From positions 790,132 through 854,131 of the forward strand of contig OY282519.1 in the NCBI GenBank assembly GCA_958296405.1: a stretch of 64,000 bases of DNA, in the 5' to 3' direction. This stretch comes from an uncultured Pseudomonadales bacterium. Lineage in GTDB: Bacteria > Pseudomonadota > Gammaproteobacteria > Pseudomonadales > Azotimanducaceae. Each line of letters begins with the position of its first letter. The stretch's first letter is position 1. The position numbers and the translations under genes are program-made. A model generated the notes under the pieces. That model did not search any database, was not told where the DNA came from, and worked only from the letters and a program-made list of their open reading frames with translations. Below, in pieces: positions 9,126 through 63,993 of the stretch.

Positions 9126-14034
<4,909 letters not shown>

Positions 14035-34717: not shown

Positions 34718-36493
34718 ATGCCGCCCGTCACCGCGCCCTTGGAGGGCCTGCTTGCGGGGTTGCGCCTCGGGGTGGGAACGGGCGACCCGGAAGCCGATTT
34801 GGAGGCGCTCTCCCAAGTCGAAGATTGGAACGCCGTCGTCGCGCTCTCGCGGCGCCATCGGGTGGCGTCTCTGCTCTTGCAGGGGATGCAGACCCGAACC
34901 GCCGAGCTGGCCTCTAACGCCGGCATCGATCTGCTCAAGCGGATCCGCGAACCCGCCGTGCGGCAGGGCATGGCACAAATCGCAGCGCTGAGACGGGCGA
35001 CCGAGCTGCTCGCCGCCGCGGGCATCCCCTGTCTGGTCATCAAGGGCCTGCCGCTCGCCCAGCGCCTGTACGGGCACCCGCTGGTTAGAAGCGCGCGGGA
35101 CATCGATCTGCTCGTTTCGCCGCCGGCGTTTCAGGCCGCCGAGCGCGTGCTGCTGCGAGACGGCTGGCGGCGCGTCGAGCCGAGTTTCCGGGAGACACCG
35201 GCCCGCAACCGCTGGTACGGCCGGTTCCGGCACGAGCATCTGCTTGCCGGCAAGGGCGGGTTGCTGGAGCTGCACCGGCGCCTGTCGAACAACCCCTCCC
35301 ACTTCGACGTGCCCTTCGAGAGCCTCCTCGCCGCCAGCCGCGAAGTGGAGATCGGCGGGTTTTCGTTCAGAACCTTGGGGCAGGAGGACGACCTCGTGTA
35401 TCTGATGTGCCATGGCGCCAGCCATTACTGGCACAGACTCATGTGGCTGTGCGATGTGGCGGTCATCCTCGCAGCCATGCCGCCCGAGCGCCTCGAACGG
35501 GTGTCGGCGCGGTGCCGGCAAGCGGGGCTTTCGAGCATCCTCGCGTCGACGCTGCTGTTGTGCGAGACGGCGCTCCATGTTCGCCTAGCGGGGCGTGCGC
35601 CGCCGTTGCCTGCCGGCGGCAAGCGAGCGGTTTGGATCGCGCGGCTTTCGGAACGAAACTGGGGCAAAGAAGAAGACGCCCTCCGTTCCAGCAGGGGCTT
35701 GGACTGGGCCGGGCAGAAGGTGCTCAAGCTGGTCGCCAAATCCGATTCCAGGGCCGTCCTGCACGAGTTCGCGAGCTTGTTCGTCGTCCCGCGAGACTGG
35801 ATGAAGCTTGATCTCCCCGACCAGCTGTTCTACCTGTATTTTCCGCTGCGTCCGCTGCTTTGGGCGAATAGGAGGATAAGCGGCCGGAGGTTGTCCGACA
35901 CCTCGGCCGTCGCCGCGAATGGCGCAACTGCAGCAAGCGCCGGTCTCCGCTTCGGAAAATCCGCGCAAGCCGTCCGCACCTTCGTCCGCGCTCCCGTTGC
36001 AGCCAAGGCGATGGCGCTGGAAGCGGCGCTGTTCCTGCTTTTGGCGCGGCTGCTCATCGCGCATGTGCCAATGCGCCGCTGGCGGCGTTGGCTGGCCACG
36101 GCGGAAGAACCGGCCCCGGCCGGCTCGCGCATTGCTTGCTCGGCCGGCGATGCCGAGGGGCCGGTGCCGGCCGGTGAACCCTTGGTGCGCCCACAGCGCC
36201 TTCCCCGAAAGGTGGCGCGCATCGTGCGCAGGGTCGCCGGCCATGTGCCGTTTCCCGCTGTCTGCCTGCCGCAGGCGATGGCGCTGCAGTGGATGCTGCG
36301 CCGGCGGGGGGTGTCGAGCCGCCTCGTCTTCGGCGCCCGGCGCAAGACCGAAGATCGGGGGCTGGACTTCCATGCCTGGCTCACCGTCGGTGGGGAATGT
36401 GTGATTGGGGGTGGCGAGGTCGAGACATATGCCGCGCTGCCGCCGTTCGACGGCAATGGACGGCGTTTGGATCTGAATGAACCAGCGAGGTGA
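34718..36493 (+). CDS. Fusion of nucleotidyltransferase (NTP_transf_5) and lasso-peptide B2 leader peptidase
   Basis: The 591-residue protein has two domains. Residues 1 to about 370 are a Pol-beta-like nucleotidyltransferase of the NTP_transf_5 type, with V-I-K-G-L-P-L at 107-113 and the metal-binding R-D-I-D-L-L at 127-132. Residues about 440-591 are a transglutaminase-like lasso B2 domain, with catalytic Cys516 (P-A-V-C-L-P-Q-A-M-A-L) and His552 (D-F-H-A-W-L). B2 removes the leader of a lasso precursor. Nucleotidyltransferases of this kind occur as separate genes in some lasso clusters; fusion to B2 is unusual. ATG 34718 has GAGGG seven bases upstream; ATG 34664 is an alternative. It overlaps the exporter gene by 17 bases. 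Confidence 0.82.
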   Translation: MPPVTAPLEGLLAGLRLGVGTGDPEADLEALSQVEDWNAVVALSRRHRVASLLLQGMQTRTAELASNAGIDLLKRIREPAVRQGMAQIAALRRATELLAAAGIPCLVIKGLPLAQRLYGHPLVRSARDIDLLVSPPAFQAAERVLLRDGWRRVEPSFRETPARNRWYGRFRHEHLLAGKGGLLELHRRLSNNPSHFDVPFESLLAASREVEIGGFSFRTLGQEDDLVYLMCHGASHYWHRLMWLCDVAVILAAMPPERLERVSARCRQAGLSSILASTLLLCETALHVRLAGRAPPLPAGGKRAVWIARLSERNWGKEEDALRSSRGLDWAGQKVLKLVAKSDSRAVLHEFASLFVVPRDWMKLDLPDQLFYLYFPLRPLLWANRRISGRRLSDTSAVAANGATAASAGLRFGKSAQAVRTFVRAPVAAKAMALEAALFLLLARLLIAHVPMRRWRRWLATAEEPAPAGSRIACSAGDAEGPVPAGEPLVRPQRLPRKVARIVRRVAGHVPFPAVCLPQAMALQWMLRRRGVSSRLVFGARRKTEDRGLDFHAWLTVGGECVIGGGEVETYAALPPFDGNGRRLDLNEPAR

Positions 36494-38468
36494 GGCGGGT
36501 GAGGCCAGTGCCTCGCCGGCCGGCGCGTCGGCCGCCCGCCCTGAACCATCGGGTTCGCGCTCCGGCCAGTCTGGCCATGCCGCCATCTTCGCTGAGGCAG
36601 GGAGGCTCGCGGGCGCTCTGATCGCCTTTGCGCCGCGCAAGAGCGTTCTGGCGCTGCTGGTGTTGTTGGCCACCGGGGTGACCGAGGCGTTCGGCCTGCT
36701 CATGATCCTTCCCCTCTTGCATGTCGTCGGTTTCACCGCGCGGCCTGGTGAGGAAAGCCCGGTCGCAGAGGCGGTGGCCCGCGCTGCGGACGTCGCCGGC
36801 CTGGAGTTGACGCTGCCGGCGGTGCTCACGGTCTTCCTGATCCTTGCCGCCGTGCGCTCGGCCGGGGCTTGGCAACGGACGGTGCTCTTGGACCGGATGC
36901 GTCTGGGATTCACCGACCGGCTGCGGGAGAGGCTCTACGCGGCCGTCGCGGCAGCGAAATGGGAGTTTCTCCTCACACGCCGCCAGTCGGACATCGAACA
37001 CCTGCTGACCGGCAATGTGAACCGCATCGGCCAGGGAGCGTTTCTCGTGCTGCAACTGGCGGCGACGACGCTGCTGGCGCTGGCGCAGATCGTGCTTGCG
37101 GCGTTGATTTCCCCCTCTCTGACCGCCGCGACCCTCGCCACGGGGGCAGCGCTGCTGTTCCTTACCCGCTCGCTGGTGCGGCGTTCGCACACCCTCGGCG
37201 AGAGGCTGACCGGCGCCAACCGAGCGATCTACGGCGCCATGACGGATTTCTTGGGTGGACTGAAGCTCGCCAAGGGCTACAACGTCGAAGGGCGGCACGT
37301 GCGGCACTTCACGGAGAAGGTCGCGGTGATGCGGGAACGCCAGTTGGCGTATACGCGGATCAGCGCGGCGACGCGCGCGGGCCTCGACATGGGCGCCGCG
37401 TTCGCGCTCGCCGCGCTGGCCTGGTTTGCCTTGTCCACGGCCGCGCTGCCGCTGCCGGAGCTGTTGCTCATCGCGCTGATCTTCGCGCGTCTGCTGCCGG
37501 CGCTGTTCGGTTTGCAGCAGCGTGTGCAAGCGCTCGCGCACGTGCTGCCCGCGCACGCCCATGTGCGGGCGATGCAGCGGGCGTTGGAAGACGTCGCGGA
37601 GACGCCCGCGGGGCGTGGCGGCGCGCGAATGGACCTGTGCGAGGCACTGACAGTGCGCGACGCCTCATTCACCTACGGTGCCGGCGCCGAATCCATCGCC
37701 GGCATTGGGGCCGAAGCTCAGCTTGGCAGCCGTGCCGCGGAGGAACCGGAATCCAAGCCCCACATCGTCCGTCCGGCGCTGAAGAACGTCAGCCTGGATG
37801 TCCCCGCCGGGAAGATGACGGTGCTCACCGGGCACTCTGGGGCCGGCAAGAGCACGCTGGCGGACGTCCTGCTCGGCCTGCTCGCGCCCGGCGAGGGCGA
37901 GGTGCGCGTGGACGGCGAGCGCTTAGCCGGGCCGAACCTGCACCGTTGGCGGCGCTCCGTCGCCTACGTTCCCCAAGACCCGTACCTGTTTCACGACACC
38001 ATCCGGGCGAACCTGCGGTGGGCACAGCCCGCGGCCACAGAAGCCCAGATGTGGCAGGCGTTGCGCCTAGCCGCCGCCGACGAGTTCGTCGCCGCGCTGC
38101 CCGACGGGCTGGACACCGTCACTGGCGACCGAGGCGGGCGGCTTTCCGGCGGCGAGCGCCAGCGGATCGCCCTCGCGCGGGCGCTGATGAGAAGCCCGGC
38201 GCTGCTCGTGCTCGACGAAGCGACCGGGCAGCTGGACGCGGAGAACGAGCGGCGGATACTCACAGCGCTGAAATCATTGCGGAGGCGCACGACCATCGTT
38301 GCCATCGCCCACCGCTCCGCCCTGTTGGAAGCTGCGGACGGGATCGTGTGGTTGGAATCCGGCCAAGTCGCCGCCACGGGCTCTTGGGAGGAGCTTGCCG
38401 CAGAGATCAGCGCAACCGGAGAAGGCAACGGGTGGATGGGAGCGCAAAGGAAGGAACGCTGGGGGTGA
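36477..38468 (+). CDS. ABC exporter, TMD-NBD fusion, probable lasso-peptide transporter (D protein)
   Basis: The 663-residue half-transporter has an N-terminal low-complexity lead, six membrane spans between about residues 45 and 345, and an ATPase domain from about 385. Walker A is L-T-G-H-S-G-A-G-K-S-T near 450, the signature is L-S-G-G-E-R-Q-R-I-A-L-A-R-A-L near 555, and Walker B is L-L-V-L-D-E-A-T-G near 577. It has no C39 peptidase domain, as in McjD-type exporters. Translation is coupled to the B2 gene upstream. The likely job is export of, and immunity to, the lasso peptide. Confidence 0.85.
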   Translation: MNQRGEAGEASASPAGASAARPEPSGSRSGQSGHAAIFAEAGRLAGALIAFAPRKSVLALLVLLATGVTEAFGLLMILPLLHVVGFTARPGEESPVAEAVARAADVAGLELTLPAVLTVFLILAAVRSAGAWQRTVLLDRMRLGFTDRLRERLYAAVAAAKWEFLLTRRQSDIEHLLTGNVNRIGQGAFLVLQLAATTLLALAQIVLAALISPSLTAATLATGAALLFLTRSLVRRSHTLGERLTGANRAIYGAMTDFLGGLKLAKGYNVEGRHVRHFTEKVAVMRERQLAYTRISAATRAGLDMGAAFALAALAWFALSTAALPLPELLLIALIFARLLPALFGLQQRVQALAHVLPAHAHVRAMQRALEDVAETPAGRGGARMDLCEALTVRDASFTYGAGAESIAGIGAEAQLGSRAAEEPESKPHIVRPALKNVSLDVPAGKMTVLTGHSGAGKSTLADVLLGLLAPGEGEVRVDGERLAGPNLHRWRRSVAYVPQDPYLFHDTIRANLRWAQPAATEAQMWQALRLAAADEFVAALPDGLDTVTGDRGGRLSGGERQRIALARALMRSPALLVLDEATGQLDAENERRILTALKSLRRRTTIVAIAHRSALLEAADGIVWLESGQVAATGSWEELAAEISATGEGNGWMGAQRKERWG

Positions 38469-41941: not shown

Positions 41942-41951
41942 AGGAAAACTT

Positions 41952-43073
41952 ATGCTGCAAAGACTATATGTCGACAACTACAAGTGCTTGGTCAATTTTG
42001 ATCTACACCTTCAGGAGCTCTCGCTGCTGCTCGGGCCGAACGGCGTGGGGAAGACCTCCGTGCTCGATGTCGTATTCGCACTACGCCGGCTTCTCGACGG
42101 AAGCGCCAGGATCACCGACGCCGATGCGTTTTCCGCCCGCACGTTGACCCGCTGGCAGAAAGGGCGGCTTCAAGTCTTCGAGATCGAGGTTTTGCTGGAC
42201 CCCGATCGTTTTACCTATCGACTTGAGGTAGACCATGATCCGTCGTTTCGGCGCCCTCGTATCCGCCTCGAGGAATTGGTTCATCAGGATGAACGAGATA
42301 AAGGGCCCCTGTTCAAGTTCGAGAATGGCGATGTGCAGCTCTATCGTGACGACTACTCGCCCGGCCCCCTGTACTCTTACGATTGGTCCGAGTCCGCGCT
42401 CGCCCGGGTCGCACCTAGAAAGGACAACGAACGCCTAACGCGCTTTCTGGACTTCATCAGAAAGATCATGGTGTGCAGCCTCTACCCGCCGATCTTCAGC
42501 GCAGAATCGAAGGACGAGGATCCACTCCTTCAGCGAGACACCCGGAACTTCGCGGACTGGTACCGACACATGGTCCAAGAACGTCCGGATTTGCTCCCGG
42601 AGTTTACGAGTACGTTACAAGAAATCATTCACGGCTATCGCGGAATCCGGCTGGAAAAGGTCGGCCAGGAAACACGTGCCCTCATGGTCGTATTCGACGA
42701 GGGCGGTGAACGGTACGAGTTGCGATTCGACGAGCTCTCCGATGGGCAGCGGGCGCTCATCGCATTGTATGCCTTGATTCATCTGACCGCGGATCAGGGC
42801 TACACGCTCTTCCTCGACGAGCCTGACAACTATGTAGCGCTTCCGGAGATCCAGCCTTGGCTCCGAGAACTTGAAGATACTTGTGGAGAGACGGTGCCCC
42901 AGGCCGTGATCAGCTCTCATCACCCGGAATTGATCGACTATCTGGGTTGTGAGAACAGCTACATGCTTCAGCGGGAGAAGTCAGGGGTCGTGACGGTACG
43001 CAAACCAGAGGCCAGTCCGGCCGAGCCCGGGCTCAAGCGTTCCGAGTTGATCGCTAGGGGATGGGATACGTGA
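41952..43073 (+). CDS. AAA ATPase (AAA_21/RecF-like), second ATPase of the block
   Basis: The 373-residue protein begins L-Q-R-L-Y-V-D-N-Y-K-C-L-V-N-F-D, the usual first strand of OLD/RecF-type ATPases. Walker A is L-L-G-P-N-G-V-G-K-T-S near residue 32, the signature L-S-D-G-Q-R-A-L-I-A-L-Y near 260, Walker B Y-T-L-F-L-D-E-P-D-N-Y near 285, and the His switch I-S-S-H-H-P-E near 320. The coiled-coil insert is short. It lies ten bases after the first TOPRIM gene and overlaps the next gene by 13 bases. It is not a close copy of the ParB-AAA protein. Confidence 0.8.
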   Translation: MLQRLYVDNYKCLVNFDLHLQELSLLLGPNGVGKTSVLDVVFALRRLLDGSARITDADAFSARTLTRWQKGRLQVFEIEVLLDPDRFTYRLEVDHDPSFRRPRIRLEELVHQDERDKGPLFKFENGDVQLYRDDYSPGPLYSYDWSESALARVAPRKDNERLTRFLDFIRKIMVCSLYPPIFSAESKDEDPLLQRDTRNFADWYRHMVQERPDLLPEFTSTLQEIIHGYRGIRLEKVGQETRALMVVFDEGGERYELRFDELSDGQRALIALYALIHLTADQGYTLFLDEPDNYVALPEIQPWLRELEDTCGETVPQAVISSHHPELIDYLGCENSYMLQREKSGVVTVRKPEASPAEPGLKRSELIARGWDT

Positions 43074-43630
43074 ACAGGGAAGTGCAGATTGTCCTGTTGT
43101 GCGAAGACAAGCAGCATCAGGCCTTCGTGGAACGATTCCTCGAGTTGACGGGACGGCTGACGCGCAAGGGGAAGCGCCGACTCAGGGTCGAGAGGGCTTC
43201 GCAAGGGCGGGGCTCTGCCGAGCAGTTCGTTTGTGAGCGGTTTCCCAAGGAACTCGCGGCATACCGCAGCCAGAGAAACCGCGTATCCGTGGCGCTCGTC
43301 GTCATGCTAGACGGCGATGCCGCGGGGGTCGCCGGACGCCTCGCCGAACTCAATGCTGCGTGTGAGAGGCAGGGAATCCCCATCAGACGATCCGATGAAG
43401 ACGTCTTCGTGTTCGTACCCACGTGGCAGATCGAGTCATGGTTGGCTTGGCTCGGTAGCGAAACCGAGACCATCGACGAGGGAAGACGCGACTACCCTTA
43501 CCTGAAAGAAGAGCGAAAATGCCAGCCGCACGCAAGGGCGCTCGCTGCCATGTGCCAAAACCGGCAGCTCCGGGCTCCCGTCCCTCCCTCGCTGGACGCG
43601 GCCTGCACGGAGTACGGTCGCTGGAGTTGA
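43061..43630 (+). CDS. Small TOPRIM-like protein paired with the second ATPase
   Basis: The 189-residue protein has V-Q-I-V-L-L-C-E-D-K-Q-H-Q-A-F-V-E-R-F at residues 8-26, with the TOPRIM Glu, and V-A-L-V-V-M-L-D-G-D-A-A-G near 82, the D-x-D motif. V-F-V-P-T-W-Q-I-E-S-W-L near 120 resembles the end of DUF4276/RloB-like TOPRIM proteins. The start lies 13 bases inside the upstream ATPase gene, so the pair is coupled. It is the last gene of the block and is convergent with the lasso operon across 42 bp. Confidence 0.65.
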   Translation: MGYVNREVQIVLLCEDKQHQAFVERFLELTGRLTRKGKRRLRVERASQGRGSAEQFVCERFPKELAAYRSQRNRVSVALVVMLDGDAAGVAGRLAELNAACERQGIPIRRSDEDVFVFVPTWQIESWLAWLGSETETIDEGRRDYPYLKEERKCQPHARALAAMCQNRQLRAPVPPSLDAACTEYGRWS

Positions 43631-43672: not shown

Positions 43673-44572
43673 TCAATCGCTGCCGCTGGGGAAGCAAACG
43701 TGGCCGCTCAAGACGAAGCGCCCCGCGCCGAAATCGTCGGCATCGCACTCCACGGGCGTCACTTGGTGCCAGTCTTTGCTCATGAAGAAGACGATGCCCC
43801 CGTGCAACGGCTTGATGCGCGAGAAGGCAGGAACCGGATGCCCTCCTCTTTGGTTGGAGTCGTAGAGAAGAAGGTCCCCGCCAGAGAAACGCCTAGGTTC
43901 AGGATGGAAAAAACAGATGAAGCTCAGCACTCGGTCACGATGGCTATCAACGCTGCTGTCGCAGTGGATGGTATAGAAACCGCCCGCTGGATACACCCGC
44001 ACATTCATTTCAATGCGATATCGCCCCGGATCCTCCAGGCGCAGGCGCGCCAGGATCTCCGGAATCGCACGTTCAAGCCTCGGCAAAAACCAGAGCCTGA
44101 AGTCCCGCCGTGCGCCTGGTTTCACCTCCAAGGTGATTCGTGACTCCGGTTTCACGCGGGGGCATTCCTCTGCATTGCTCCACACTCTTGCGGCGCCGAA
44201 GTGCTCGCGCCGAGCCAGCGCCAGTGCGAACATGTAGTCGCATTCCTGCGCGGTCAGGAAATCCTTCATCCGCACGAACGGGGCGGGACGGGTGCCGTGG
44301 GGCGGCGCCTCCGGCAACCTGCGGCTGTCCAGCAGGGCACTCAACCAAGACGCTTTCTGCCGATCGGGGCCGGACTCGCTCAGGCGCCGGTACAGATCTC
44401 CCGCGGCGTCGAGGTTTCCCTGCATTCGATGGATGTCGCCAAGCCTCCACAGCGCCTGGCCGTTGCGCACACCCGCCGCCAGCGCCCTTTGCGCGGCGCA
44501 CTCGGCCTTGTCGAGCACCCCGCCCGGGGCCAGCAGCCCGGGCGCCAATCGGATGAATTCGGACATCGGCAT
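43673..44572 (-). CDS. 2-oxoglutarate/Fe(II) oxygenase with N-terminal TPR-like helices, probable peptide hydroxylase
   Basis: The 299-residue protein has TPR-like helices in the first 70 residues (A-L-W-R-L-G-D-I-H-R-M-Q-G-N-L-D-A-A), then a prolyl-4-hydroxylase-type oxygenase domain. The iron ligands are His203 and Asp205 (Y-T-I-H-C-D-S) and His269 (D-W-H-Q-V), and Arg285 (A-G-R-F-V-L-S-G) would bind 2-oxoglutarate. It lies directly downstream of the lasso precursor in the same direction, and the predicted core peptide has four Pro residues, so proline or Asp hydroxylation of that peptide is a reasonable guess. A paralogue lies at 61365-62318. Confidence 0.8.
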   Translation of the reverse strand: MPMSEFIRLAPGLLAPGGVLDKAECAAQRALAAGVRNGQALWRLGDIHRMQGNLDAAGDLYRRLSESGPDRQKASWLSALLDSRRLPEAPPHGTRPAPFVRMKDFLTAQECDYMFALALARREHFGAARVWSNAEECPRVKPESRITLEVKPGARRDFRLWFLPRLERAIPEILARLRLEDPGRYRIEMNVRVYPAGGFYTIHCDSSVDSHRDRVLSFICFFHPEPRRFSGGDLLLYDSNQRGGHPVPAFSRIKPLHGGIVFFMSKDWHQVTPVECDADDFGAGRFVLSGHVCFPSGSD

Positions 44573-44621
44573 TACCGCCCTCGATCCGACCCGGTCACGA
44601 CCTTCCGCCGATCGCTACAGC

Positions 44622-44777
44622 TTACGACTGCGGTGGCACATGATCGTCGGCCTCTTGGGGTGCATGGGGAATCTTGGTAGAGTTGACATACCGCAGGTCA
44701 GGGCCCAACCGAATCAAGCGGGGCTCCGTCCAAGCCTTGCGCTCGTCGTGGGGATCTATTTGGTTCTCGTTGCTCAT
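44622..44777 (-). CDS. Lasso-peptide-type RiPP precursor (A peptide)
   Basis: The 51-residue peptide has the hallmark leader motif Y/W-x-x-P-x-L-x-x-x-G as Trp16, Pro19, Leu21 and Gly25, which PqqD-like B1 proteins bind. Thr34 fits the conserved Thr at the penultimate leader position, giving a 16-residue core I-P-H-A-P-Q-E-A-D-D-H-V-P-P-Q-S with acidic residues at core positions 7, 9 and 10 for ring closure. Core position 1 would be Ile, which is atypical (Gly, Ala, Ser and Cys are usual), so the cleavage site is uncertain. The C-terminal Ser is the kind of residue phosphorylated by HPr-kinase-like enzymes in paeninodin-type clusters. GGGGGG lies about 8-13 bases before ATG 44777. It sits between cyclase and oxygenase genes. 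Confidence 0.82.
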   Translation of the reverse strand: MSNENQIDPHDERKAWTEPRLIRLGPDLRYVNSTKIPHAPQEADDHVPPQS

Positions 44778-44814
44778 CGGCTTTTCCCCCCTGTTGCTTC
44801 CTGAACCCAAGCAA

Positions 44815-44837
44815 GCTGTCCACTGAAACGGGACAAC
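44815..44837 (-). promoter_or_regulatory. Hairpin between the cyclase gene and the precursor gene
   Basis: Read on the minus strand, GTTGTCC, nine bases and GGACAGC form a seven-pair stem (one G-T pair) in the 80-bp gap. No T-tract follows. It could be an RNA processing or stability element that lets the precursor be made in excess over the enzymes, but this is a guess from position. Confidence 0.35.
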
Positions 44838-44857
44838 TCCACCGGAAAAAAATGCTA

Positions 44858-46828
44858 TCACATCGCCGCCCAATTGCCGCCGCCCTCGACCCACTTGATG
44901 AAACGCCCGGCATTGAGCGCACGGGGCAGGAACTGCAGCAGCCGCCAGTCGGGATGGTCGCGCGCCGACAACGGGGTGCGCTCCGGCCAGGTGTCCACGG
45001 CGCGCAGCAGGCGATCGAGGTCGAGCCGTCCGGCGACGGCGGGGTCGCCGCGCCAGCGCTCCAGGGTCATGCGGATTTCCGGCAGCCGGCGGGCGGTCCG
45101 CAAGTGCCAGTCCGCCGCCTGCAGGCCCTTGGGCCCATCCAGAATCTCGGCCGGCAGCCGATCCTGCATGAGCCTTCGCACCAGCATGTGGCTCCGGCCC
45201 TCGCGCAGGAACTGATCGTACGGCAGCCCGCAGCCCCACTCCATCAGCCGGCGTTCGAAGAGCGGATCCCGGATCGCGACGCCGTGGAGGACCTCCTGGG
45301 CCCGCTTCGTCGCTCTGCCGTTGCGCAAGAGAGGCCCCGACAGCATGCGCAACACCGCCTCCCGGCCGGACGGATGCCTCTTGAAATAGGAATCGAAGCC
45401 CTGTTCCCGGGCGCGCTCGTCCACTCCCGCGGAGCGGGCGTAATCGGGGTTGATCGGGCTGTACCCGCGCCAACCGCGGCTGCCGAACGCAACCTTGCGC
45501 AAGACGCGGTGCATCCCCTCGGGGAGGTTGGGAAGGATTGCGTGGCGCAGCAGGGGCGCGAACCGGCCGAACCGGCCGTGCGGCAGACCGGCGGCCATCC
45601 GCCACAGGGCCCGCCAGCGCCCCGTGCGAAACGCCTCGCTCAAGCGCCCGTAGCCGCTGCGGCTGAGCATGAAGTCGCCGCCGTTCCCGCGCAGGACGAC
45701 GCGCCGCCCCGCGGCCGCGGCCTGGCGCAGACATTCATTGGTCCAGTACCCGTTGCCGGGGTTGCGCACGGGGAACTCCGCCAGCTCGAACATCGGCATC
45801 CGCGAGTCGGCGCCGCTGAGGCCTGCGGCCTCGACGAACCGGGCGTCGAGGCGCGGATGCATCCGCGCCAGAGCCCGCACCGCATCGCCCTCGTCTCCCG
45901 TCTGGCCCGCCGGGACGCGTCCGTCCCACCCCGGCTCGGGAACCGCCGTGAAGGAGACGAGCGGCGCCGCGCCGGGGCGCCCTTCCAGAACCTCCAAGGC
46001 CGTCACCGCAACCGACGTCGAGTCGAATCCGCCGCTCATCATGACGGCCGGCGTCTCCGGCGCCCGCAACGCGCTGCGCACCGCGCCGCGCAGCAAGTCG
46101 CCGGCCGCCTCCATGTAGTCCGCATCCTTGGGCAGCCGAACCGGGCGGGCCCGCTCGGCCAGATCGTAGTAGCGCCTCACTGCGTCCGTGCGCGGCCCGA
46201 CCGTCAGCATCTCGCCCGGAGAAAGCGAGGACACGCCCTGATAGAACGTGGCGCGGGGGTCGCCGTAGTCGAGGATGAGGCTGCTGGCGAAATACGCGTC
46301 GTCGAGGCGGCGCGGCACATCGCCCCACGCGAAGATGCCGCGGGGAACGGTGGCGATGATCACCCGGTGGGAATCGACGGAGAAGTGCAGCGGCGGCGCC
46401 ATGATCGGTGAGCAGACGGCTTGCAGGACGCGACTATGCGGGCTCCAGAGCACGGCGGTGAACCAGCCTTCCGCCCGCTCGGCGGCCGCGTCCCCCCAAC
46501 GCGCCGCGGCGCGGGCGAACAGGGCGCCGTCCGCAATCCGCCGCGCTTCGCCCTGGCTCAGGCCGAGCGCGGAGGCCAGCTCCTCGCGGTGGTTGAGGAA
46601 GCCGTCGAACAACAGGACGCGGCCGCCGTTCAATGCGATCGGCTGGCTGTCGAACTCGTCCTGCGGCGTGGCAACGACGGAGACCGCCTTCGCCAACCCC
46701 GCGGGGCCGCCGCGCCACACCGTCGGAGCTGCGGCGCCGAAGGGCCGCAGGGAATCGGCCACGGCGGTGAGGCGCTTGCGGTCCACCGGCCGCCCGTCGC
46801 GGAGGAAGACTGCGGCCAAGGCCGTCAT
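44858..46828 (-). CDS. Asparagine-synthase-like lasso cyclase (C protein)
   Basis: The 656-residue protein has the class II glutamine-amidotransferase fold (about 1-200) followed by an ATP-pyrophosphatase domain with the PP-loop M-S-G-G-F-D-S-T-S at 264-272. The N-terminus is M-T-A-L, so the nucleophile Cys2 of true asparagine synthases is missing and it cannot use glutamine. This is the state found in lasso macrolactam synthetases, which adenylate an Asp/Glu side chain of the precursor and join it to the new N-terminus. ATG 46828 overlaps the upstream kinase stop (ATGA). The precursor gene follows 80 bp downstream. Confidence 0.87.
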   Translation of the reverse strand: MTALAAVFLRDGRPVDRKRLTAVADSLRPFGAAAPTVWRGGPAGLAKAVSVVATPQDEFDSQPIALNGGRVLLFDGFLNHREELASALGLSQGEARRIADGALFARAAARWGDAAAERAEGWFTAVLWSPHSRVLQAVCSPIMAPPLHFSVDSHRVIIATVPRGIFAWGDVPRRLDDAYFASSLILDYGDPRATFYQGVSSLSPGEMLTVGPRTDAVRRYYDLAERARPVRLPKDADYMEAAGDLLRGAVRSALRAPETPAVMMSGGFDSTSVAVTALEVLEGRPGAAPLVSFTAVPEPGWDGRVPAGQTGDEGDAVRALARMHPRLDARFVEAAGLSGADSRMPMFELAEFPVRNPGNGYWTNECLRQAAAAGRRVVLRGNGGDFMLSRSGYGRLSEAFRTGRWRALWRMAAGLPHGRFGRFAPLLRHAILPNLPEGMHRVLRKVAFGSRGWRGYSPINPDYARSAGVDERAREQGFDSYFKRHPSGREAVLRMLSGPLLRNGRATKRAQEVLHGVAIRDPLFERRLMEWGCGLPYDQFLREGRSHMLVRRLMQDRLPAEILDGPKGLQAADWHLRTARRLPEIRMTLERWRGDPAVAGRLDLDRLLRAVDTWPERTPLSARDHPDWRLLQFLPRALNAGRFIKWVEGGGNWAAM

Positions 46829-47763
46829 GCGCAATCCAGCGCAGGAAGTGGACCGGCCGGCAGCGCTTCAGCCATGTGGGCCACCCCTCGGTCGAACCAC
46901 TCGTGGGCGAAGGGACGGTTGAACCGGAACACCCCGATTTGGGGCTGCAGCGCGGCGATCTGTTGGAAGAGCCGGCCGCGGCCCAGGATCGCCGCGGCGA
47001 ACTTGGGGCGAAAGACGGTGCGAAGCAATGCGTTCAGCGCCGGAACCCCTGAAAGGCGCTCCACCGTGGAAATGCCCTGCTCAAGGGCTCGGCGCTGTCC
47101 CCGTTTCAGAACGTAGAGCGCCTTGAGGCTGGCGCAGGCATGCGGCCAGCGCTGGCGCGGGAGGGCATATGCCTTGCCGTCCCCCGCCTCCCTGCCCACG
47201 GGCCGCTGGATGCGGGCCCCGAGCAACGCGATGGCGTCCGGGTGCAGCTTCATGTCCTGGTGCGAACAGCACCGCACCTCATCGCCGAAGCGGAGCGGCG
47301 CGAGCGTCAGGACGTCGTCCGAGAAGAACGGATGGCCGCGCATGGAGAGCGCGCCGGCCAAGGTCGACTTCCCCGCGCCGGACTCGCCGGTGAACGCGTG
47401 GACGCCGTCGGCGCAGACCACCGCGCTGGCGTGCAGGCACAGCAGGCCGCGCTGGCAGGCAAGCGCCGCCCAGGCGGAACCCTGCAGGAACGGCCGGACC
47501 TCGTCCGCCGCCAGGCCGGGCGCCTCGTAGCGGACGCGCTCCCCGCCTTCGACCAGGATGCGCAAGCCGTGGGGCCCCTTCACAAGGAAACGGCCTCGGG
47601 CGGCGCTCCAGAACCGCCCCCCGTGCTCCACCTCCGGCAACGACTCCGGCACCGCGCCGCGCCTGATGACGACGTCCGCGCGCCCTGGCCGCAGCCAAGG
47701 CGCCGCCGCTTCGTCCAGGTCGAGGTCGGCATCGACGGTGAAGGGAACTTCCGGCGCAGTCAT
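46825..47763 (-). CDS. HPr-kinase-like protein, intact motifs, probable precursor Ser kinase
   Basis: The 312-residue protein has a variable N-terminal half beginning V-P-F-T-V-D-A-D-L-D-L and a HprK-like ATPase core: L-H-A-S-A-V-V (catalytic-type His) near 130, P-loop T-G-E-S-G-A-G-K-S-T near 147, and F-F-S-D-D-V near 168. HprK homologues in paeninodin-type lasso clusters phosphorylate the C-terminal Ser of the precursor, and the precursor here ends in Ser. ATG 47763 overlaps the oxygenase stop, and its own stop overlaps the cyclase start, both as ATGA. A diverged second copy lies at 49639-50610. Confidence 0.82.
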   Translation of the reverse strand: MTAPEVPFTVDADLDLDEAAAPWLRPGRADVVIRRGAVPESLPEVEHGGRFWSAARGRFLVKGPHGLRILVEGGERVRYEAPGLAADEVRPFLQGSAWAALACQRGLLCLHASAVVCADGVHAFTGESGAGKSTLAGALSMRGHPFFSDDVLTLAPLRFGDEVRCCSHQDMKLHPDAIALLGARIQRPVGREAGDGKAYALPRQRWPHACASLKALYVLKRGQRRALEQGISTVERLSGVPALNALLRTVFRPKFAAAILGRGRLFQQIAALQPQIGVFRFNRPFAHEWFDRGVAHMAEALPAGPLPALDCA

Positions 47764-48425
47764 GCCGGGTCCTTTCTTGGAACCACTTGGTCCCGCCCAG
47801 GTGGAAACAATGCGCTTCGGAACCACCCGGCGTAGCGACACCTGGGCGCGGTTCCCCGTAGCGGAAGAATCCTGTGCTCCAGGGAGTCGTCAATGCGGAA
47901 CAGGCAGGAGTCCCCAAACCGATTCGACCCGACCGTTTGGAAAACCTCCTTGGTTCTCCTGCTTCGAATCTGCAAGCTGCCGCCCTCGAAGGGCTCCCTG
48001 GACAAGTTGATGCTCAGGGCATACAGCCGTTCATCCGTGACGTCCCCGTGCCAAGAATTGAAAAGACCGACGCCCGGAAGGTGCTTGAAGCAGCGGCCGA
48101 CGAAGGTTCGAATGGTCTGTTCACAACCCGTGAACTCGGCAATCGCCTCGCGCAGCCGGGGTTGATTGAGCAAATAGAAGAACATGTGCGGCAGCGTTTC
48201 AGACTTCCGCATCGTCAGCTCCCTGGCGAATTCCCGGCCTGCGCGATTGAAGTCGCCGCGCAGGTCGAACTCGCCGTGCTCCAGCATCCGGGGGATATGG
48301 CACAAAATGGACTCGCCGAGAAAGCCTTCGAGCACAACGCAGTGGCGTTGCGCAAACTCCTGCTGCAGCGCCGCCCACGCGTCGTCCCTGGCGATGCGCA
48401 CACCGCTGGCCGTGAGCTGAATCAT
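47760..48425 (-). CDS. 2-oxoglutarate/Fe(II) oxygenase of the lasso operon
   Basis: The 221-residue protein has the double-stranded beta-helix ligand set His126 and Asp128 (S-W-H-G-D-V), His184 (L-E-H-R-I) and Arg197 (R-C-R-Y-A-G-W-F), with G-G-S-L-Q-I-R between. This resembles the short 2OG oxygenases that modify peptides or free amino acids rather than the larger TPR-bearing type at 43673. Its place between the leader-binding protein and the kinase, with coupled translation on the downstream side, argues that it acts on the precursor, perhaps as an Asp or Pro hydroxylase. Confidence 0.78.
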   Translation of the reverse strand: MIQLTASGVRIARDDAWAALQQEFAQRHCVVLEGFLGESILCHIPRMLEHGEFDLRGDFNRAGREFARELTMRKSETLPHMFFYLLNQPRLREAIAEFTGCEQTIRTFVGRCFKHLPGVGLFNSWHGDVTDERLYALSINLSREPFEGGSLQIRSRRTKEVFQTVGSNRFGDSCLFRIDDSLEHRILPLRGTAPRCRYAGWFRSALFPPGRDQVVPRKDPA

Positions 48426-48446
48426 GCCTTCCTGCGACCGGTCGAC

Positions 48447-48749
48447 CTACGACAGCTCGACCAGGCCGACCGCCTGCAATTCATCCAGAAGCACCGCGAT
48501 GTCGCGCCGGCACTTCTCCTCGTCGACCCTGAACTCTGCGCACAGAGCCGTCGTCAACTCCTGAACCTGCGTCCAGGCCCCGCTGTCCTCCTCGATGAGT
48601 TGCCAGACGCGCAGGCCCGCTTCCCGGAGACCGTAGAACTGGCCTTCGGCAACGTCCATGAACACCAGATCGTCGTCCAGCATGGCGTTGACGAAGTTGT
48701 CGGGAGTGCGCCTTACGCGGCTCTTTGGCGTGATCTTCATGTTCCTCAT
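48447..48749 (-). CDS. PqqD-like leader-peptide-binding protein (lasso B1)
   Basis: The 100-residue protein has the PqqD/RRE fold pattern: S-R-V-R-R-T-P-D-N-F, M-L-D-D-D-L-V-F-M-D-V-A-E-G-Q-F-Y-G-L, then a helix with G-L-R-V-W-Q-L-I-E-E and a last helix V-D-E-E-K-C-R-R-D-I-A-V-L-L-D-E-L-Q-A-V-G-L-V-E. In lasso pathways such B1 proteins bind the Y-x-x-P-x-L leader motif and present it to the peptidase and cyclase. ATG 48749 overlaps the sulfotransferase stop (ATGA); ATG 48740 is an alternative. A second PqqD-like gene is at 63670-63993. Confidence 0.85.
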   Translation of the reverse strand: MRNMKITPKSRVRRTPDNFVNAMLDDDLVFMDVAEGQFYGLREAGLRVWQLIEEDSGAWTQVQELTTALCAEFRVDEEKCRRDIAVLLDELQAVGLVELS

Positions 48750-49642
48750 CCAGTGGCTCGACAAGAATAGCCGAAGCGGGCCATCGTCGCCCCATGGGCG
48801 GCCAGGATGTCCCCCACCTGTGCCGCTGAGAGATGCCGGCTCCCGTCTCCGGCCACGCCCGAGCGGAAGAAGGGGGTCCGACTGTGCGGGCTGCGCGTGT
48901 GGAAGCCTTCGCGGCCTTCGTTCTCCTGCAGCCGCGCAAAGGCCGAGTGGGCAACGGCCCCCTCCAGTCGCTGGCGGTCGGAAGCGCCTTCGAGGCGCAG
49001 GAACGAAGCGATCCTGCCCAGCCAGCCGGCGGTGTCCGCAAGCAGGTCTTCGTAACGCACCGTCAGCACCGGAAACGGCGCGCCTGTCCAGCTCTCGACG
49101 TGGCCCGACCAATCGAACAACCGCTGGCGAAGCTCATGGCTTCCGGCGCCTCCTATGCAACTTGTCCGCGCGTTCAGATAGGCGACGCTGTCCGCGAAGC
49201 CCTCCTCGCCCAAGTAAAACGCCCAGGACACGGCGACATCGAGCGGGTTGCGGATCAGGTACACCGCGCCGACCGTCACGTCGTCCGGAAACAAGGGTTC
49301 GCCGGCCGGCGTGTCGCGGCAGGCTTCATGCGCCTTGCAGAACAGCGGCGTTGCCTTGCGCTGCGTCTCCTGGGCCCAGAATCGGACAATGGCCGGACGC
49401 AGGGATTCGGCCTCGTCCTCCGTGCAGTCCGACGATGAGATGCCCGCCAGGCTGTCGAACCACGGCCGGCCGTGAAAAAGGACGTTGGGCATCGCACTCC
49501 CGATGTCGTTGATGCCGACCGGTTCGGCCGCCGCCGACAGGAAGTTCGCCAGCAGCAGGCGCGTCCAAGTGTTGCCGGACCTCGGGTAGCTCGCCAACCA
49601 GGCGATGCGCCGTTGGCCGGACACCGGGTGCGCCCTCGTCAC
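48746..49642 (-). CDS. PAPS-dependent sulfotransferase
   Basis: The 298-residue enzyme has the 5'-phosphosulfate loop W-L-A-S-Y-P-R-S-G-N-T-W near residue 15, the 3'-phosphate region with V-Y-L-I-R-N-P-L-D-V-A-V-S near 130 and V-R-Y-E-D-L-L near 200, and the C-terminal A-A-Q-V-G-D-I-L-A-A-H-G-A-T-M-A-R-F-G-Y. GTG 49642 overlaps the upstream kinase stop (GTGA), and homology begins there. It would sulfate a hydroxyl in the peptide or an accessory molecule. The core peptide has no Tyr but has a Ser and possible hydroxy-Pro or hydroxy-Asp sites. Relics of similar genes lie at about 50.7 and 62.7 kb. Confidence 0.85.
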   Translation of the reverse strand: MTRAHPVSGQRRIAWLASYPRSGNTWTRLLLANFLSAAAEPVGINDIGSAMPNVLFHGRPWFDSLAGISSSDCTEDEAESLRPAIVRFWAQETQRKATPLFCKAHEACRDTPAGEPLFPDDVTVGAVYLIRNPLDVAVSWAFYLGEEGFADSVAYLNARTSCIGGAGSHELRQRLFDWSGHVESWTGAPFPVLTVRYEDLLADTAGWLGRIASFLRLEGASDRQRLEGAVAHSAFARLQENEGREGFHTRSPHSRTPFFRSGVAGDGSRHLSAAQVGDILAAHGATMARFGYSCRATG

Positions 49643-50610
49643 GGCGACGCCCACCCTTGCACGGTGCCGGAATCGGCTGCCGACAGCAGCGCGGCGATGC
49701 GGTTGACGCCGGCTCCGAACATGGCTGGGATTTCGGGGCGGGTGAGCCTCAGCATCTCCACGCGGCGGCTCAAAGCCATGACCCATTGAAAGAGCGGCAG
49801 GCGCCCAACGACGGCAATCGTGATCGGCCGGGAGTGTATGGCGGCTTCGATCACTGTTTCCACTTTGTTGCTCCCCGACAGCCGCTCCAAGTGCATGGAG
49901 TGGCGATCACCGGAAGCATCGCCCTTCTTGAAGCTGGCCAAGTACACAACGGTTCGCAGGCGCCCCGACACTCGGGCCGCCCTCTGGCGCGGCACGGCGT
50001 ACAGCTTGCGGTACTTCGAGGTTGGGCGCACGGGCCCAACTTTCTCGCAGTCCGCGAGCTCCAGCGCCTTTGGCCACACCTTCAAGTCGTCGCAGCGATA
50101 GCAGCGCGCCTCCGCGTCCAAGCCCTCGGGATCGAGAATCAACAGGTCGTCGGCGAAGAATGGATAGCCGCGCGCGGCCAACGCCGCCGCCGAGGCCGAC
50201 TTGCCCCTCTTCGGCAGGCCGACGAAGGCATGCACGTCCTCGGCGTCGGCAACGGCGCTCGCCTTCAGGGGCAGCAAGCCGCGCTGCGCGGCCAGCACAC
50301 TGAGCGCCGTGCCGAGGAAGAACAACCGCAGGTCCGCCAGCGAGGCGCCGCCATCGAGCGCGTAGCGCATGGCCGAGCCGCCCTCGACGAGGAAGCGCGC
50401 GCCGCATGGCGTCAGGATCAACGTGCGGCCGGCGGCGTGTTGCCAGGCAACCCCCCGCGATTCCGGACGCGGCAGCGACAACGGCACCGCGCCGCGGCGA
50501 ACGACCACATCGGCGCCGTGCGCCCGGCACCAAGGGGCGGCGGCTTCGCCCAAGTCGAAGTCCGCGTCGATGGTGAAGGGGACTCGCTGCGCGGCCACGG
50601 CGGGGACCAT
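49639..50610 (-). CDS. HPr-kinase-like protein with altered active-site motifs
   Basis: The 323-residue protein is a paralogue of the kinase at 46825: it begins V-P-F-T-I-D-A-D-F-D-L-G-E-A-A-A-P-W and keeps the F-F-A-D-D-L block. The catalytic-type His is replaced (L-K-A-S-A-V instead of L-H-A-S-A-V), and the P-loop reads V-G-L-P-K-R-G-K-S-A, with Ala after GKS. It may be an inactive or regulatory subunit, or bind nucleotide differently. ATG 50610 has AGGGGC about eight bases before it and starts where the two copies become alike. It is the first intact gene of the minus-strand lasso operon. Confidence 0.75.
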   Translation of the reverse strand: MVPAVAAQRVPFTIDADFDLGEAAAPWCRAHGADVVVRRGAVPLSLPRPESRGVAWQHAAGRTLILTPCGARFLVEGGSAMRYALDGGASLADLRLFFLGTALSVLAAQRGLLPLKASAVADAEDVHAFVGLPKRGKSASAAALAARGYPFFADDLLILDPEGLDAEARCYRCDDLKVWPKALELADCEKVGPVRPTSKYRKLYAVPRQRAARVSGRLRTVVYLASFKKGDASGDRHSMHLERLSGSNKVETVIEAAIHSRPITIAVVGRLPLFQWVMALSRRVEMLRLTRPEIPAMFGAGVNRIAALLSAADSGTVQGWASP

Positions 50611-50925: not shown

Positions 50926-51697
50926 GTCAAATTGTGAACCGGTTCATGACATCTGGCACTGAGGCTGGGCGGCCTCGTAGTCGACAAGGCAGTCGTTGGG
51001 GGAGCGGTAGTCGATGGCGGAGTGCGGGCGCTGATAGTTGTGGAAGAACTCGTGCCTGAGGAGCTTCTTGGAGACGGCCTCGACGGTGAGGTCGCAGTCG
51101 AGGAGGTTCCAGAACTCGACGCGGGCGGTGCGGTTGGCGCGCTCGACGCAGCCGTTCCACTGCGGGCGGCGCGGCGGCAGGACGCGCAGGGCGACGCCGA
51201 GGTTCCTGCAGGCGTCCTCGAAGCCGGCCATGAAGTCGCTGCCGCCGTCGACCTGGACGGACTCCAGCGGCACGTGGAGGGCTTCGGCGACGTCGGCGAG
51301 GAAGCGGGCGGCGTTGAAGGCGGCAGCGCGGGAGAAGGCGCGGGCGACCATGAACCGGCTGACGGGGCAGATGGCGCGGAACTCCTTGATGGAGCTGCCG
51401 TCGCGGGAGACGGTCATGTGGTCGATCTGGACGAGCTGGCCGGGGCGCTCGGCCTTGTCGCCGTACTTCCACCGCCGCGCCCAGCCGTTGAACTTGCGGG
51501 GGCGCTTGGGCTTGGCCCGGCCTTCGCAGAGGCTGGCGGGGGGCACGGCGCCGTCCGCGATGGCGCGCGAGAGGATGCGCCCGACGGTTGACGCGCTCAG
51601 GCGCAGGCCCTGGTGTTCGAGCATGCGCTGGACGCGCGCCTTGTCCATGAACGGGTGCCTGCGGCGCAGGGCCATGAACCGGTTCATCTGCTTGACA
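50926..51697 (-). mobile_element. Short IS481/IS3-like element, about 770 bp
   Basis: The left end reads GTCAAATTGTGAACCGGTTCATG and the right end, on the other strand, GTCAAGCAGATGAACCGGTTCATG; the two align as imperfect inverted repeats around an AACCGGTT palindrome. They enclose one transposase gene. No target duplication is obvious. The element is shorter than usual IS481 members (about 1 kb), and the transposase lacks its N-terminal helix-turn-helix, so it is probably a truncated or decayed copy whose exact ends are uncertain. Confidence 0.5.
50944..51687 (-). CDS. Integrase-core transposase, IS481/IS3-like, N-terminally short
   Basis: From ATG 51687, which lies inside the end palindrome, the product is 247 residues. 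R-R-R-H-P-F-M-D-K-A-R-V-Q-R-M-L and L-S-A-S-T-V-G-R-I-L form the HTH_21-like part. The rve core has Q-I-D-H-M-T-V (Asp), V-Q-V-D-G-G-S-D-F (Asp) and W-N-G-C-V-E-R-A-N-R-T (Glu), then Y-Q-R-P-H-S-A-I-D-Y. Related enzymes have about 100 more residues with a first helix-turn-helix. The catalytic residues are intact, but the missing N-terminus makes activity doubtful. Confidence 0.8.
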   Translation of the reverse strand: MNRFMALRRRHPFMDKARVQRMLEHQGLRLSASTVGRILSRAIADGAVPPASLCEGRAKPKRPRKFNGWARRWKYGDKAERPGQLVQIDHMTVSRDGSSIKEFRAICPVSRFMVARAFSRAAAFNAARFLADVAEALHVPLESVQVDGGSDFMAGFEDACRNLGVALRVLPPRRPQWNGCVERANRTARVEFWNLLDCDLTVEAVSKKLLRHEFFHNYQRPHSAIDYRSPNDCLVDYEAAQPQCQMS

Positions 51698-52165
51698 AAA
51701 GGCCCCTGTGTAGCAACTATCACGACAGTACGGGAACGACAAGGCAGGGGTGGCAGGTCGGTGCAAGCCGCCACTCAGAGCATGATGCGACTCAATCGAC
51801 ATCGCAGAGGGCTGGGAGCACTCCCAGCGGCACGAATTGTCGTGCGTACGTCAACGCTTAGGGGAGAGCGACGAGCATGGCCAATAACAACTGCCACTTG
51901 CGGATGGTACACAAGAACAGAGGGGCTGTCGGTCTTAGGTCGCGGGTGTAGGCCGGTCCATGTCTCGGAAGAACCAAGGTGCGGTAGCAGGCTGCCGCTG
52001 GACTGTGCCGTCAGTTGGGCGGCATCTGGTTCGTGCCTTTCGCCCATCGATGCGTTTGCGCTGCACCAGATGCAGGCACGCGCTGAGGCCGTCAGCGCCG
52101 AGCGCCAGAGTGAGATCGCCGAACATGGAGCCAAAGCCCGTTGGGGCTGAAGAAGTCCTCCGACG
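51698..52165. other. 468-bp stretch with a possible gene remnant
   Basis: No full gene is recognised. The plus strand ends, at TGA 52148-52150, in a protein-like run (H-Q-M-Q-A-R-A-E-A-V-S-A-E-R-Q-S-E-I-A-E-H-G-A-K-A-R-W-G) of a kind common at the C-terminus of small mobile-element proteins. No convincing start lies upstream, so it may be the 3' end of a gene cut by the IS. The rest shows nothing. Confidence 0.35.
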
Positions 52166-62774: not shown

Positions 62775-62957
62775 CATGTGCAGCGCATCCCACACATGGG
62801 TGTTCACCGAGAAGTGTCCGGTGCCGAAGTCGGTGGGGTCGCACTCCAGCAGCGTAACCTCGTGGACGCAGCGGCTGGGGAACAGGACGATGCTGTTGTC
62901 CTGCGGCTCGACGCGGCACTCCCCAACACCGGTCATCCGTTTCTTGGGGGGGTCTCA
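62775..62957 (-). pseudogene. 3' fragment of a 2OG-Fe(II) oxygenase gene
   Basis: The minus strand gives C-R-V-E-P-Q-D-N-S-I-V-L-F-P-S-R-C-V-H-E-V, then F-G-T-G-H-F-S-V-N-T-H-V. This is the last 60 residues of the oxygenase type found at 61365 and 43673, including the distal iron His; the 2OG Arg position is now His. The first 200 residues are missing, and the fragment runs straight into the sulfotransferase relic. Confidence 0.65.
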
Positions 62958-63669: not shown

Positions 63670-63993
63670 ATGGCAGAGAACGATACCGTGAAGCCGGGCC
63701 AACCGGACGTGACCGTCGCCCTCACCTCGCAAGTGTCGCGCAACGAGGCCATCGTCTTCACCGACCTCGACGACACCATCGTGATGATGGACGTCGACGA
63801 AGGGCAGTACTACGAGCTCGACCCGGTCGGCGCCCGAATCTGGGGCCTGCTCGAAACCGGCCGGTCCGCCGCGGCTCTCTGCGACGCCTTGGCCGCGGAC
63901 TTCGACGTCGACCTCGACACCTGCCAACGCGACACCTTGGAGTTCCTGCAAGCAGCCGGCGCCATGCGGATCGTCCACGTGCAGGCCGCGTAG
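63670..63993 (+). CDS. PqqD-like leader-binding protein at the right window edge
   Basis: The 107-residue protein shows the RRE pattern V-S-R-N-E-A-I-V-F-T-D-L-D-D-T-I-V-M-M-D-V-D-E-G-Q-Y-Y-E-L, P-V-G-A-R-I-W-G-L-L-E, then A-L-A-A-D-F-D-V-D-L-D-T-C-Q-R-D-T-L-E-F-L. ATG 63670 has AAAGGCGG about nine bases ahead. It is not a close copy of the PqqD-like protein at 48447. Nothing else of its operon is in the window; peptidase, cyclase and precursor genes would be expected to the right. Confidence 0.85.
   Translation: MAENDTVKPGQPDVTVALTSQVSRNEAIVFTDLDDTIVMMDVDEGQYYELDPVGARIWGLLETGRSAAALCDALAADFDVDLDTCQRDTLEFLQAAGAMRIVHVQAA

Follow-up and report, generated by a model that had tools for sequence, protein, structure and literature searches.

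A predicted phosphorylated lasso peptide cluster with two 2-oxoglutarate oxygenases and a sulfotransferase in an uncultured Pseudomonadales bacterium

The window analysed here, a 64,000-nucleotide stretch of contig OY282519.1 (positions 790,132 to 854,131) from an uncultured Pseudomonadales bacterium, carries a lasso-type biosynthetic cluster in which eight minus-strand genes at 43673-50610 are arranged in the order K2 (HprK-fold protein), ST (sulfotransferase), B1 (PqqD-like leader-binding protein), 2OG-1 (2-oxoglutarate (2OG)-Fe(II) oxygenase), K1 (HprK-like kinase), C (cyclase), A (precursor peptide) and 2OG-2 (second oxygenase). Apart from this main operon, a nucleotidyltransferase-B2 fusion and an ATP-binding cassette (ABC) exporter, D, are coded on the plus strand at 34.7-38.5 kb (Table 1). 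The identities of these genes, their conservation and their co-occurrence in the cluster are matters of observation, and sustain the claim of an initial sequence-only reading that a genuine precursor is accompanied by a large tailoring set. It is considered probable (roughly 0.6) that the product is a phosphorylated lasso peptide of the paeninodin/Bsf kind made by the mechanism outlined below. The system as such belongs to a known kind; what looks new is its combination of enzymes, the ring size it probably produces and a processing protease that seems to be shared, and the cluster plus its orthologues constitute a compact testable set for multiply decorated lasso peptides.

In the mechanism envisaged, every reaction, site and order of which is a prediction, B1 would bind the W-x-x-P-x-L leader motif and present the precursor, the C-terminal Ser of which would be phosphorylated by K1. 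One or two core residues would be hydroxylated by the 2OG oxygenases, and ST would sulfate a hydroxyl. The B2 half of the fusion would cut the leader, most likely after Asn32, making Ser33 core residue 1, and cyclase C would then adenylate the conserved acid Glu42 (core 10) and close a macrolactam around the tail. Since the fusion of nucleotidyltransferase to B2 suggests glycosylation of the phosphate, the former half may place a sugar on the C-terminal phosphate prior to export by the ABC protein. K2, a degenerate paralogue, probably assists K1 or the sulfotransferase, and the same B2 probably serves the other six cyclase loci of the genome. A more ambitious composite, comprising natural 10-residue rings, hydroxyl, sulfate and glycosylated C-terminal phosphate on one peptide, a hub nucleotidyltransferase-B2 protein serving dispersed mobile modules, and core swapping, is rather unlikely to hold in its entirety.

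The frames and start codons of the cluster genes were re-checked, the start codon of the nucleotidyltransferase-B2 fusion being chosen by eye and its frame checked: all the reading frames are open, and active-site motifs are intact save for the catalytic His of K2. GTGA/ATGA overlaps occur at four junctions (K2-ST, ST-B1, 2OG1-K1 and K1-C); 2OG-2 starts 49 nt past the precursor with no overlap. The previously named PqqD-like B1, B2 and exporter were each confirmed by profile matches (PF05402 for B1 and both PF13471 and NF033537 for B2, all above cut-off; PF00005/PF00664 for D), the B2 moiety retaining its active-site Cys and His and scoring 67.7 bits against the NF033537 lasso B2 model (cut-off 33). 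B2 and exporter do lie nearby, although the exporter ends 5.2 kb rather than the reported 4.7 kb from 2OG-2, and the nucleotidyltransferase fused to B2, found by its PF14907 match, was absent from the initial account. The HxD, H and R motifs of 2OG-2 are kept across orthologues, while its TPR_16 match is below cut-off. In ST, the sequences SYPRSGNTW and RNPLDVAVS, which we take to be 3'-phosphoadenosine 5'-phosphosulfate-binding motifs, align with relatives.

A cyclase scan of genome contigs located four orthologous loci (L021-L024) in records of uncultured Gammaproteobacteria or Pseudomonadales bacterium; a literature search on the accessions of these four metagenome-assembled genome records found no paper. 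This locus and the other four hold eight precursor-like frames, seven of them intact (the one in the window plus six from the four records), the L021 frame at 16208 being excluded because it diverges past the leader. Throughout the seven, the leader (motif WTEPRL in the window) is mostly conserved, Lys35 is invariant and the core is hypervariable, residue 42 being an acid in each of them, while neither Asp45-His46 nor the last Ser varies. The motif [WY]xxPxL also appeared in 3253 of 200000 shuffles of the peptide and alone is not decisive, but conservation of the leader, the frame and the C-terminal Ser across orthologues establishes the precursor as genuine and rules out a chance open reading frame. 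Conservation of the small frame in orthologous clusters, the check suggested by the sequence-only reading, was thereby borne out by six further intact precursors, as was the C-terminal Ser that it had singled out (7/7). The same residue ends 28 of 33 hand-picked precursors, the seven included, and no family matched the precursor in either NCBIfam (E ≤ 1) or Pfam (E ≤ 0.1).

Comparison of the seven genes indicated a mean identity of 95% over the 20 nt after the stop codon and, without gaps, 71% over the 20 nt before the start. Based on a hand-made alignment, the synonymous difference (pS) was 0.455 in residues 36 to the end as against 0.100 in residues 1-32, with corresponding non-synonymous to synonymous ratios (pN/pS) of 0.83 and 1.19. 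Positive selection on the core is thus unsupported as such: the core differs chiefly in overall divergence, synonymous sites included, a pattern suggestive of long-standing core alleles within flanks that have recombined, and one that would be better accommodated by the exchange of core cassettes between recombining copies. Tandem, partly broken units are present in L021 and L024. Precursor candidates in the related loci were chosen by eye from motif listings, a selection that yielded no convincing precursor for L037, L038, L040, L063, L103, L104, L105 or L108. In L067 a W-x-x-P-x-L peptide (10101-10238, minus strand) beside a lasso-type cyclase is devoid of Asp and Glu over its final 17 residues.

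For the cyclase, the lasso model NF033535 was the best match (186.8 bits, below its cut-off of 525), followed by the AsnB model (E 1.5e-24, also below its NCBIfam cut-off), with PF00733 above cut-off. As first noted, this asparagine-synthase-like protein has no Cys after the initiator Met (MTAL, where asnB references start MCG), and its SGGFDS motif is intact. In a midpoint-rooted tree of 39 rows, none of which is an experimentally characterised lasso cyclase, the cyclase and its orthologues formed a family with 100/100 support inside a 21-row half (root branch 96/88); ten of the other 15 rows of that half are accompanied by a kinase and a sulfotransferase as judged by profile. The three asnB references grouped separately, as a clade with 100/100 support, in the other half, and the possibility raised earlier that the cyclase would group with true amidotransferases was not realised. 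Its identification as an amidotransferase or asparagine synthetase is consequently unsupported, there being no catalytic Cys and a position apart from the asnB clade. Six Protein Data Bank chains matched by the cyclase profile comprised a hydroxyamidotransferase, four asparagine synthetases and a beta-lactam synthetase, none of the six being named as a lasso cyclase.

Lasso kinases have a conserved His-Lys-Asp-Asp set (PMC9266682; here and below, statements from the literature refer to the excerpts of each source that were available). In K1 the His, the Walker A Lys and the Asp-Asp pair are all present, its HprK matches being below cut-off, and the two features looked for in a phosphorylated lasso system, namely such a kinase and a precursor C-terminal Ser (7/7), consequently occur together. 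In K2, however, LKASAV replaces LHASAV, both here and in six aligned orthologues (L021-L026), whereas the other aligned kinase homologues have the His, with the exception of L034 (Gln) and the second kinase of L070 (Asn). K2 has no Pfam match and a weak TIGR04352 match (E 2.4e-4), but its structure model (pLDDT 86.6) matches phosphoenolpyruvate carboxykinase (PEPCK; E 6.4e-7) and HprK/P 1ko7 (E 4.2e-5). The earlier description of two HprK-like proteins is accordingly correct as to fold; with the catalytic His absent from K2, active kinase function is probably confined to K1, and K2 appears to be a degenerate paralogue that conserves the HprK fold and may have a helper role.

The frequency of the tailoring genes was assessed in two further samples. 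At E ≤ 1e-60 the cyclase profile matched 19 of 398 genomes of a phylum sample, including that of the window, and flanks were taken from 13 of the 18 others; at E ≤ 1e-100 it matched 15 of 298 genomes of family f251, flanks being taken from nine of the 14 further genomes (G881 had already been taken). An adjacent kinase and sulfotransferase occurred in 13 of these 22 related loci: eight of the 13 phylum loci (L059, L060, L061, L064, L065, L068, L069 and L070) and five of the nine f251 loci (L100-L104). By contrast, 2OG proteins were detected by profile in L021-L026, L028, L029, L038 and L039, of which all but L021 and L023 are assigned to the organism's own family (f1), and by the same profiles in none of the 22 related loci; one further 2OG-type protein, PhyH, lies near L035. 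Within f1 the cyclase profile matched five of 206 genomes at E ≤ 1e-90. It is therefore the two 2OG oxygenases that are the unusual part of the tailoring set, the kinase and sulfotransferase combination being widespread. Firmicute lasso clusters have been described with sulfotransferase genes, for which no product was given, and with B2-nucleotidyltransferase fusions (PMC8498205), pseudomycoidin combines phosphorylation and glycosylation on one peptide, hydroxylation is known from other lasso peptides (PMC9266682, PMC8498205), and a review mentions lasso examples with multiple unique post-translational modifications. No description of a sulfated lasso peptide, or of one bearing phosphate and hydroxylation together, was recognised among the literature listings, abstracts and excerpts covered. 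Genes for a kinase and a sulfotransferase are accordingly no novelty in silico among lasso clusters. An annotated aspartyl/asparaginyl beta-hydroxylase lies beside a related cyclase on plasmid p1 of Azospirillum sp. TSH100 (L077, 4059-5096); it was rejected as a hydroxylation precedent since by eye it seems more sulfotransferase-like, and the annotation may be wrong.

The leaders of phosphorylated lasso precursors carry YxxPxL at -17 to -12 and can have Ile or Val at -2 (PMC10368454), a spacing that places Val31 at -2 and makes Ser33 core residue 1. Residue 31 is Val or Ile in all seven intact precursors, and four sister precursors, SDVE/SAAGPSAD (L059), SDVK/SAVGPSAD (L100), GNVE/FDYEPGSD (L101) and SDIH/NGFALGSD (L102), the first and second being near-copies, place Val or Ile(-2) at PxL+10, with Asp as core residue 8. 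Residue 33 in the family of seven is Ser, Gly, Ala or Asn, the last having one reported precedent at core position 1, metanodin (PMC12670498). With this start an acid is found at core 10 in 7/7, and at core 8 in L024a and L023 only, core 10 being the first acid in the other five; parsed likewise, the sole acid of L026 is at 10 and that of L025 at 9. A 10-residue ring in five of the seven precursors, although unproven, would on these alignments rate somewhat ahead of a 7-residue ring. Such rings have been reported as engineered fusilassin variants in a review, and a natural example, if true, would widen the natural range of a peptide-engineering scaffold.

The register initially proposed, in which the leader ends T34-K35 and the core is IPHAPQEADDHVPPQS with a 7-residue Ile1-Glu7 ring, is a doubtful but serious competitor. 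Its Thr(-2) is shared by four of the seven intact precursors, residue 34 being Val in another two and Ala in one, its core has an acid at position 7 in 7/7, and 7-residue rings are precedented by xanthomonin and huascopeptin (reference titles in PMC13352647). Nevertheless, it would put the -2 residue at PxL+13, whereas 20 of 26 other precursors, searched at offsets +6 to +13, have a Thr, Val or Ile(-2) option compatible with a ring of 7-10, each of them within +6 to +11; the core would open with Ile, Arg, Asn, Ser or Val; and the four sister precursors favour Val31(-2). The core start at Ser33 is retained as the somewhat preferred assignment.

The distribution of leader peptidases was compared with that of cyclases by counting cyclase rows at E ≤ 1e-40 and above-cut-off B2 proteins by PF13471 in five genomes: that of the window (G000), G008, G1169, G083 and G044. 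The respective cyclase rows were 7, 4, 12 (two being pieces of one region), 2 and 5, as against 1, 1, 1, 2 and 1 B2 proteins, with below-cut-off B2 matches also in G000, G008 and G1169, and 2, 2, 5, 2 and 5 PqqD proteins. For the six other own-genome cyclases the lasso model is again best, all being below its cut-off, and nearby precursor candidates share [PA]W-x-KP, in contrast to the AWTEPRL of the present precursor. A single B2 may therefore be shared by the seven cyclase loci of the genome, and the second B1 at the right of the window is proposed to serve the other loci. Less likely, yet a tentative option of some weight, is that those loci use their own unrecognised proteases or that the single B2 serves this cluster only: a TPR-transglutaminase-like protein (PF01841) lies near L036, a sub-cut-off PF13471 match is present at G000:C1:2586981, and Pfam scans covered 20 of the 45 candidate frames at five other own-genome loci. 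The 20 scanned proteins included sulfotransferases, family-8 glycosyltransferases, 2OG/PhyH proteins and metabolic genes including an amidase, the L036 protein being the sole protease-like match among them, and the disparity between B2 and cyclase counts extends to G008, G1169 and G044. Were one leader peptidase to serve at least seven cyclases, tools that expect A, B, C and D together would miss most of the loci in genomes of this type.

A number of observations weigh against a phosphorylated lasso product made as proposed. The start at residue 33 leaves five of the seven precursors without an acid at 7-9, and a 10-residue ring has to be invoked. The register is not uniform: Ile(-2) is at +8 in L025 and L026, which have the nearest cyclases (51%), L107 puts its Val at +9 and its Asp at 9, and L106 offers no Thr, Val or Ile option. 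The invariance of Lys35, past which hypervariability starts, would fit cleavage at that point. Cyclases of Priestia and Halopiger, annotated or placed as lasso enzymes, are in the tree half that holds asnB, and the tree does not therefore link the present clade with any known lasso enzyme of this type. Scores under the NCBIfam cut-offs were obtained for the cyclase, B1 and K1, and the product and enzyme activities are predicted from the genes. Finally, the defence-like genes that separate B2 and D from the operon, along with a transposase-like frame upstream of K2, mean that expression is not assured.

Some of the same evidence would suit a lasso-derived system with a non-lasso product, either an unthreaded or other macrolactam or a linear phosphopeptide. 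The spacing of the ring acceptor is atypical, annotated lasso cyclases fall outside the clade of this one, the L067 precursor candidate carries no acid among its final 17 residues, and a linear polyphosphorylated family of ribosomally synthesised and post-translationally modified peptides (RiPPs) has a RiPP recognition element, kinase and nucleotidyltransferase but no cyclase (PMC13381572). This is judged improbable, in that the cyclase retains SGGFDS, is best matched by the lasso model and has an intact copy at each of the four orthologous loci.

Among characterised systems, PadeK, PsmK/PsmN and CanE are lasso tailoring proteins (PMC9266682), and paeninodin-like leaders contain W-x-x-P, paeninodins being called restricted to Bacillota (PMC13381572). 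Paeninodin and pseudomycoidin from that phylum, compared here through published descriptions and an annotated Priestia cluster, share with the present system the W-x-x-P leader, split B1/B2, an HprK-like kinase, the C-terminal Ser, a nucleotidyltransferase (fused to B2 in some) and an ABC exporter. Unlike them, the present system is proteobacterial, its cyclase and that of Priestia do not share a clade, it has a pair of 2OG oxygenases as well as a further HprK-fold protein, its B2/D pair is located apart, and, given a core start at 33, its precursor lacks an acid at positions 7-9. Membership of the paeninodin family proper was rejected, there being no match to a curated precursor family and the records being proteobacterial. 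Bsf from Bradymonas sediminis and CanE were compared by published description. Bsf is also of the phosphorylated lasso precursor type, its leader having YxxPxL at -17 to -12 and Ile/Val(-2), but is phosphorylated at Ser3 and described with Gly1-Asp8, whereas the present precursors conserve a C-terminal Ser and have Trp where Bsf has Tyr; in canucin A biosynthesis a 2OG oxygenase, CanE, hydroxylates the lasso precursor with the help of B1, as against the two such proteins of this cluster, one of which shows weak TPR matches. A further close system is the G881 sister cluster (L059, f251), which has C, a kinase with the catalytic His, ST, B1, B2, nucleotidyltransferase and D, and a precursor reading SDVE/SAAGPSAD and ending TTS. 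It differs in having nucleotidyltransferase and B2 as separate frames and Asp at core 8; no 2OG oxygenase or second kinase was found in the 18.5 kb taken.

Gene-by-gene identities point to mobility. For YicC, which lies some 3 kb from K2, identity is 97% in G008 and 48, 48 and 51% in G1169, G044 and G083 respectively, whereas the corresponding sulfotransferase values are 94, 91, 89 and 88%. In G1169, of another genus, the second unit of L024 is 82-99% identical gene by gene; G083 and G044 have K2 and ST at 86-88% with an intact cyclase of only ~51%, and G044 also has a broken B1 piece at 80%. The disparity between such modules (82-99%) and housekeeping YicC (48%) suggests mobile cyclase-precursor modules. 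With the nucleotidyltransferase-B2 fusion at 94% in G008, 75-78% in G083 and G044 and 51-57% in G1169, the module seems to have crossed genera unaccompanied by B2. That the locus is a decaying remnant, its function lost as marked by the transposase-like frame (50944-51774), the defence insertion, the degenerate K2 and the broken units of related clusters L021, L024, L025 and L026, is unlikely, given that the genes are open with four overlapping junctions, that the active-site motifs survive everywhere but at the K2 His, and that G008 (L022) retains both the K2 to 2OG-2 block and the B2/D pair, flanking defence genes of differing order.

Table 1. Features of the window (positions in the 64,000-nucleotide stretch).
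Feature	Position	Strand	Evidence
Nucleotidyltransferase (NTP_transf_5) fused to lasso B2 leader peptidase	34718..36493	+	PF14907 E 1.3e-52; PF13471 E 1.4e-20
ABC exporter (D)	36477..38468	+	PF00005/PF00664; overlaps B2 stop
PDC-M38A match (PADLOC candidate)	38883-41069	+	E 3.6e-224
PDC-M38B match (PADLOC candidate)	41066-41941	+	E 2.3e-21
AAA ATPase, HEC-01A-like	41952-43073	+	
Fourth gene of the defence-like stretch, marginal defence match only	43061-43630	+	E 0.0077
2OG-2, TPR and 2OG-Fe(II) oxygenase	43673..44572	-	PF13640 E 3.3e-14, above cut-off
Lasso precursor peptide A, 51 aa	44622..44777	-	Translation; orthologous precursors
Lasso-type cyclase C, without N-terminal Cys	44858..46828	-	NF033535 E 6.8e-55; tree
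HprK-like kinase K1	46825..47763	-	TIGR04352 E 1.5e-6, below cut-off; motif alignment
2OG-1, 2OG-Fe(II) oxygenase	47760..48425	-	PF13640 E 2.6e-6, 28.7 bits, cut-off 27; HGD, H, R motifs
B1, PqqD-like leader-binding protein	48447..48749	-	PF05402 E 3.7e-14, above cut-off; NF033536 E 1.1e-13, below
Sulfotransferase ST, GTG start	48746..49642	-	PF00685 E 1.6e-16
HprK-fold protein K2	49639..50610	-	Catalytic His replaced by Lys; structure model matches
Second PqqD-like B1	63670..63993	+	NF033536 E 5e-17, below cut-off; profile match

The two halves of the cluster are separated by four defence-like plus-strand genes (38883-43630), of which the first three code for proteins clearly matching defence types and the fourth matches marginally. 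In L022 all four have homologues, differently ordered, in the interval from 2OG-2 to the exporter, and two of the four adjoin 2OG-2 in L021. A C-terminal piece of 2OG-2 is located between two pairs of defence genes in L022 (17006-17152), a scar which suggests an earlier duplication of the maturation module in that locus, followed by partial loss.

At the right edge of the window, a second 2OG-2 paralogue (61437-62285) and a fragment of another (62790-62921), both on the minus strand, together with the second PqqD protein (PF05402 above cut-off at G000:C1:853909-854088), lead towards two further cyclases at G000:C1:871-878 kb.

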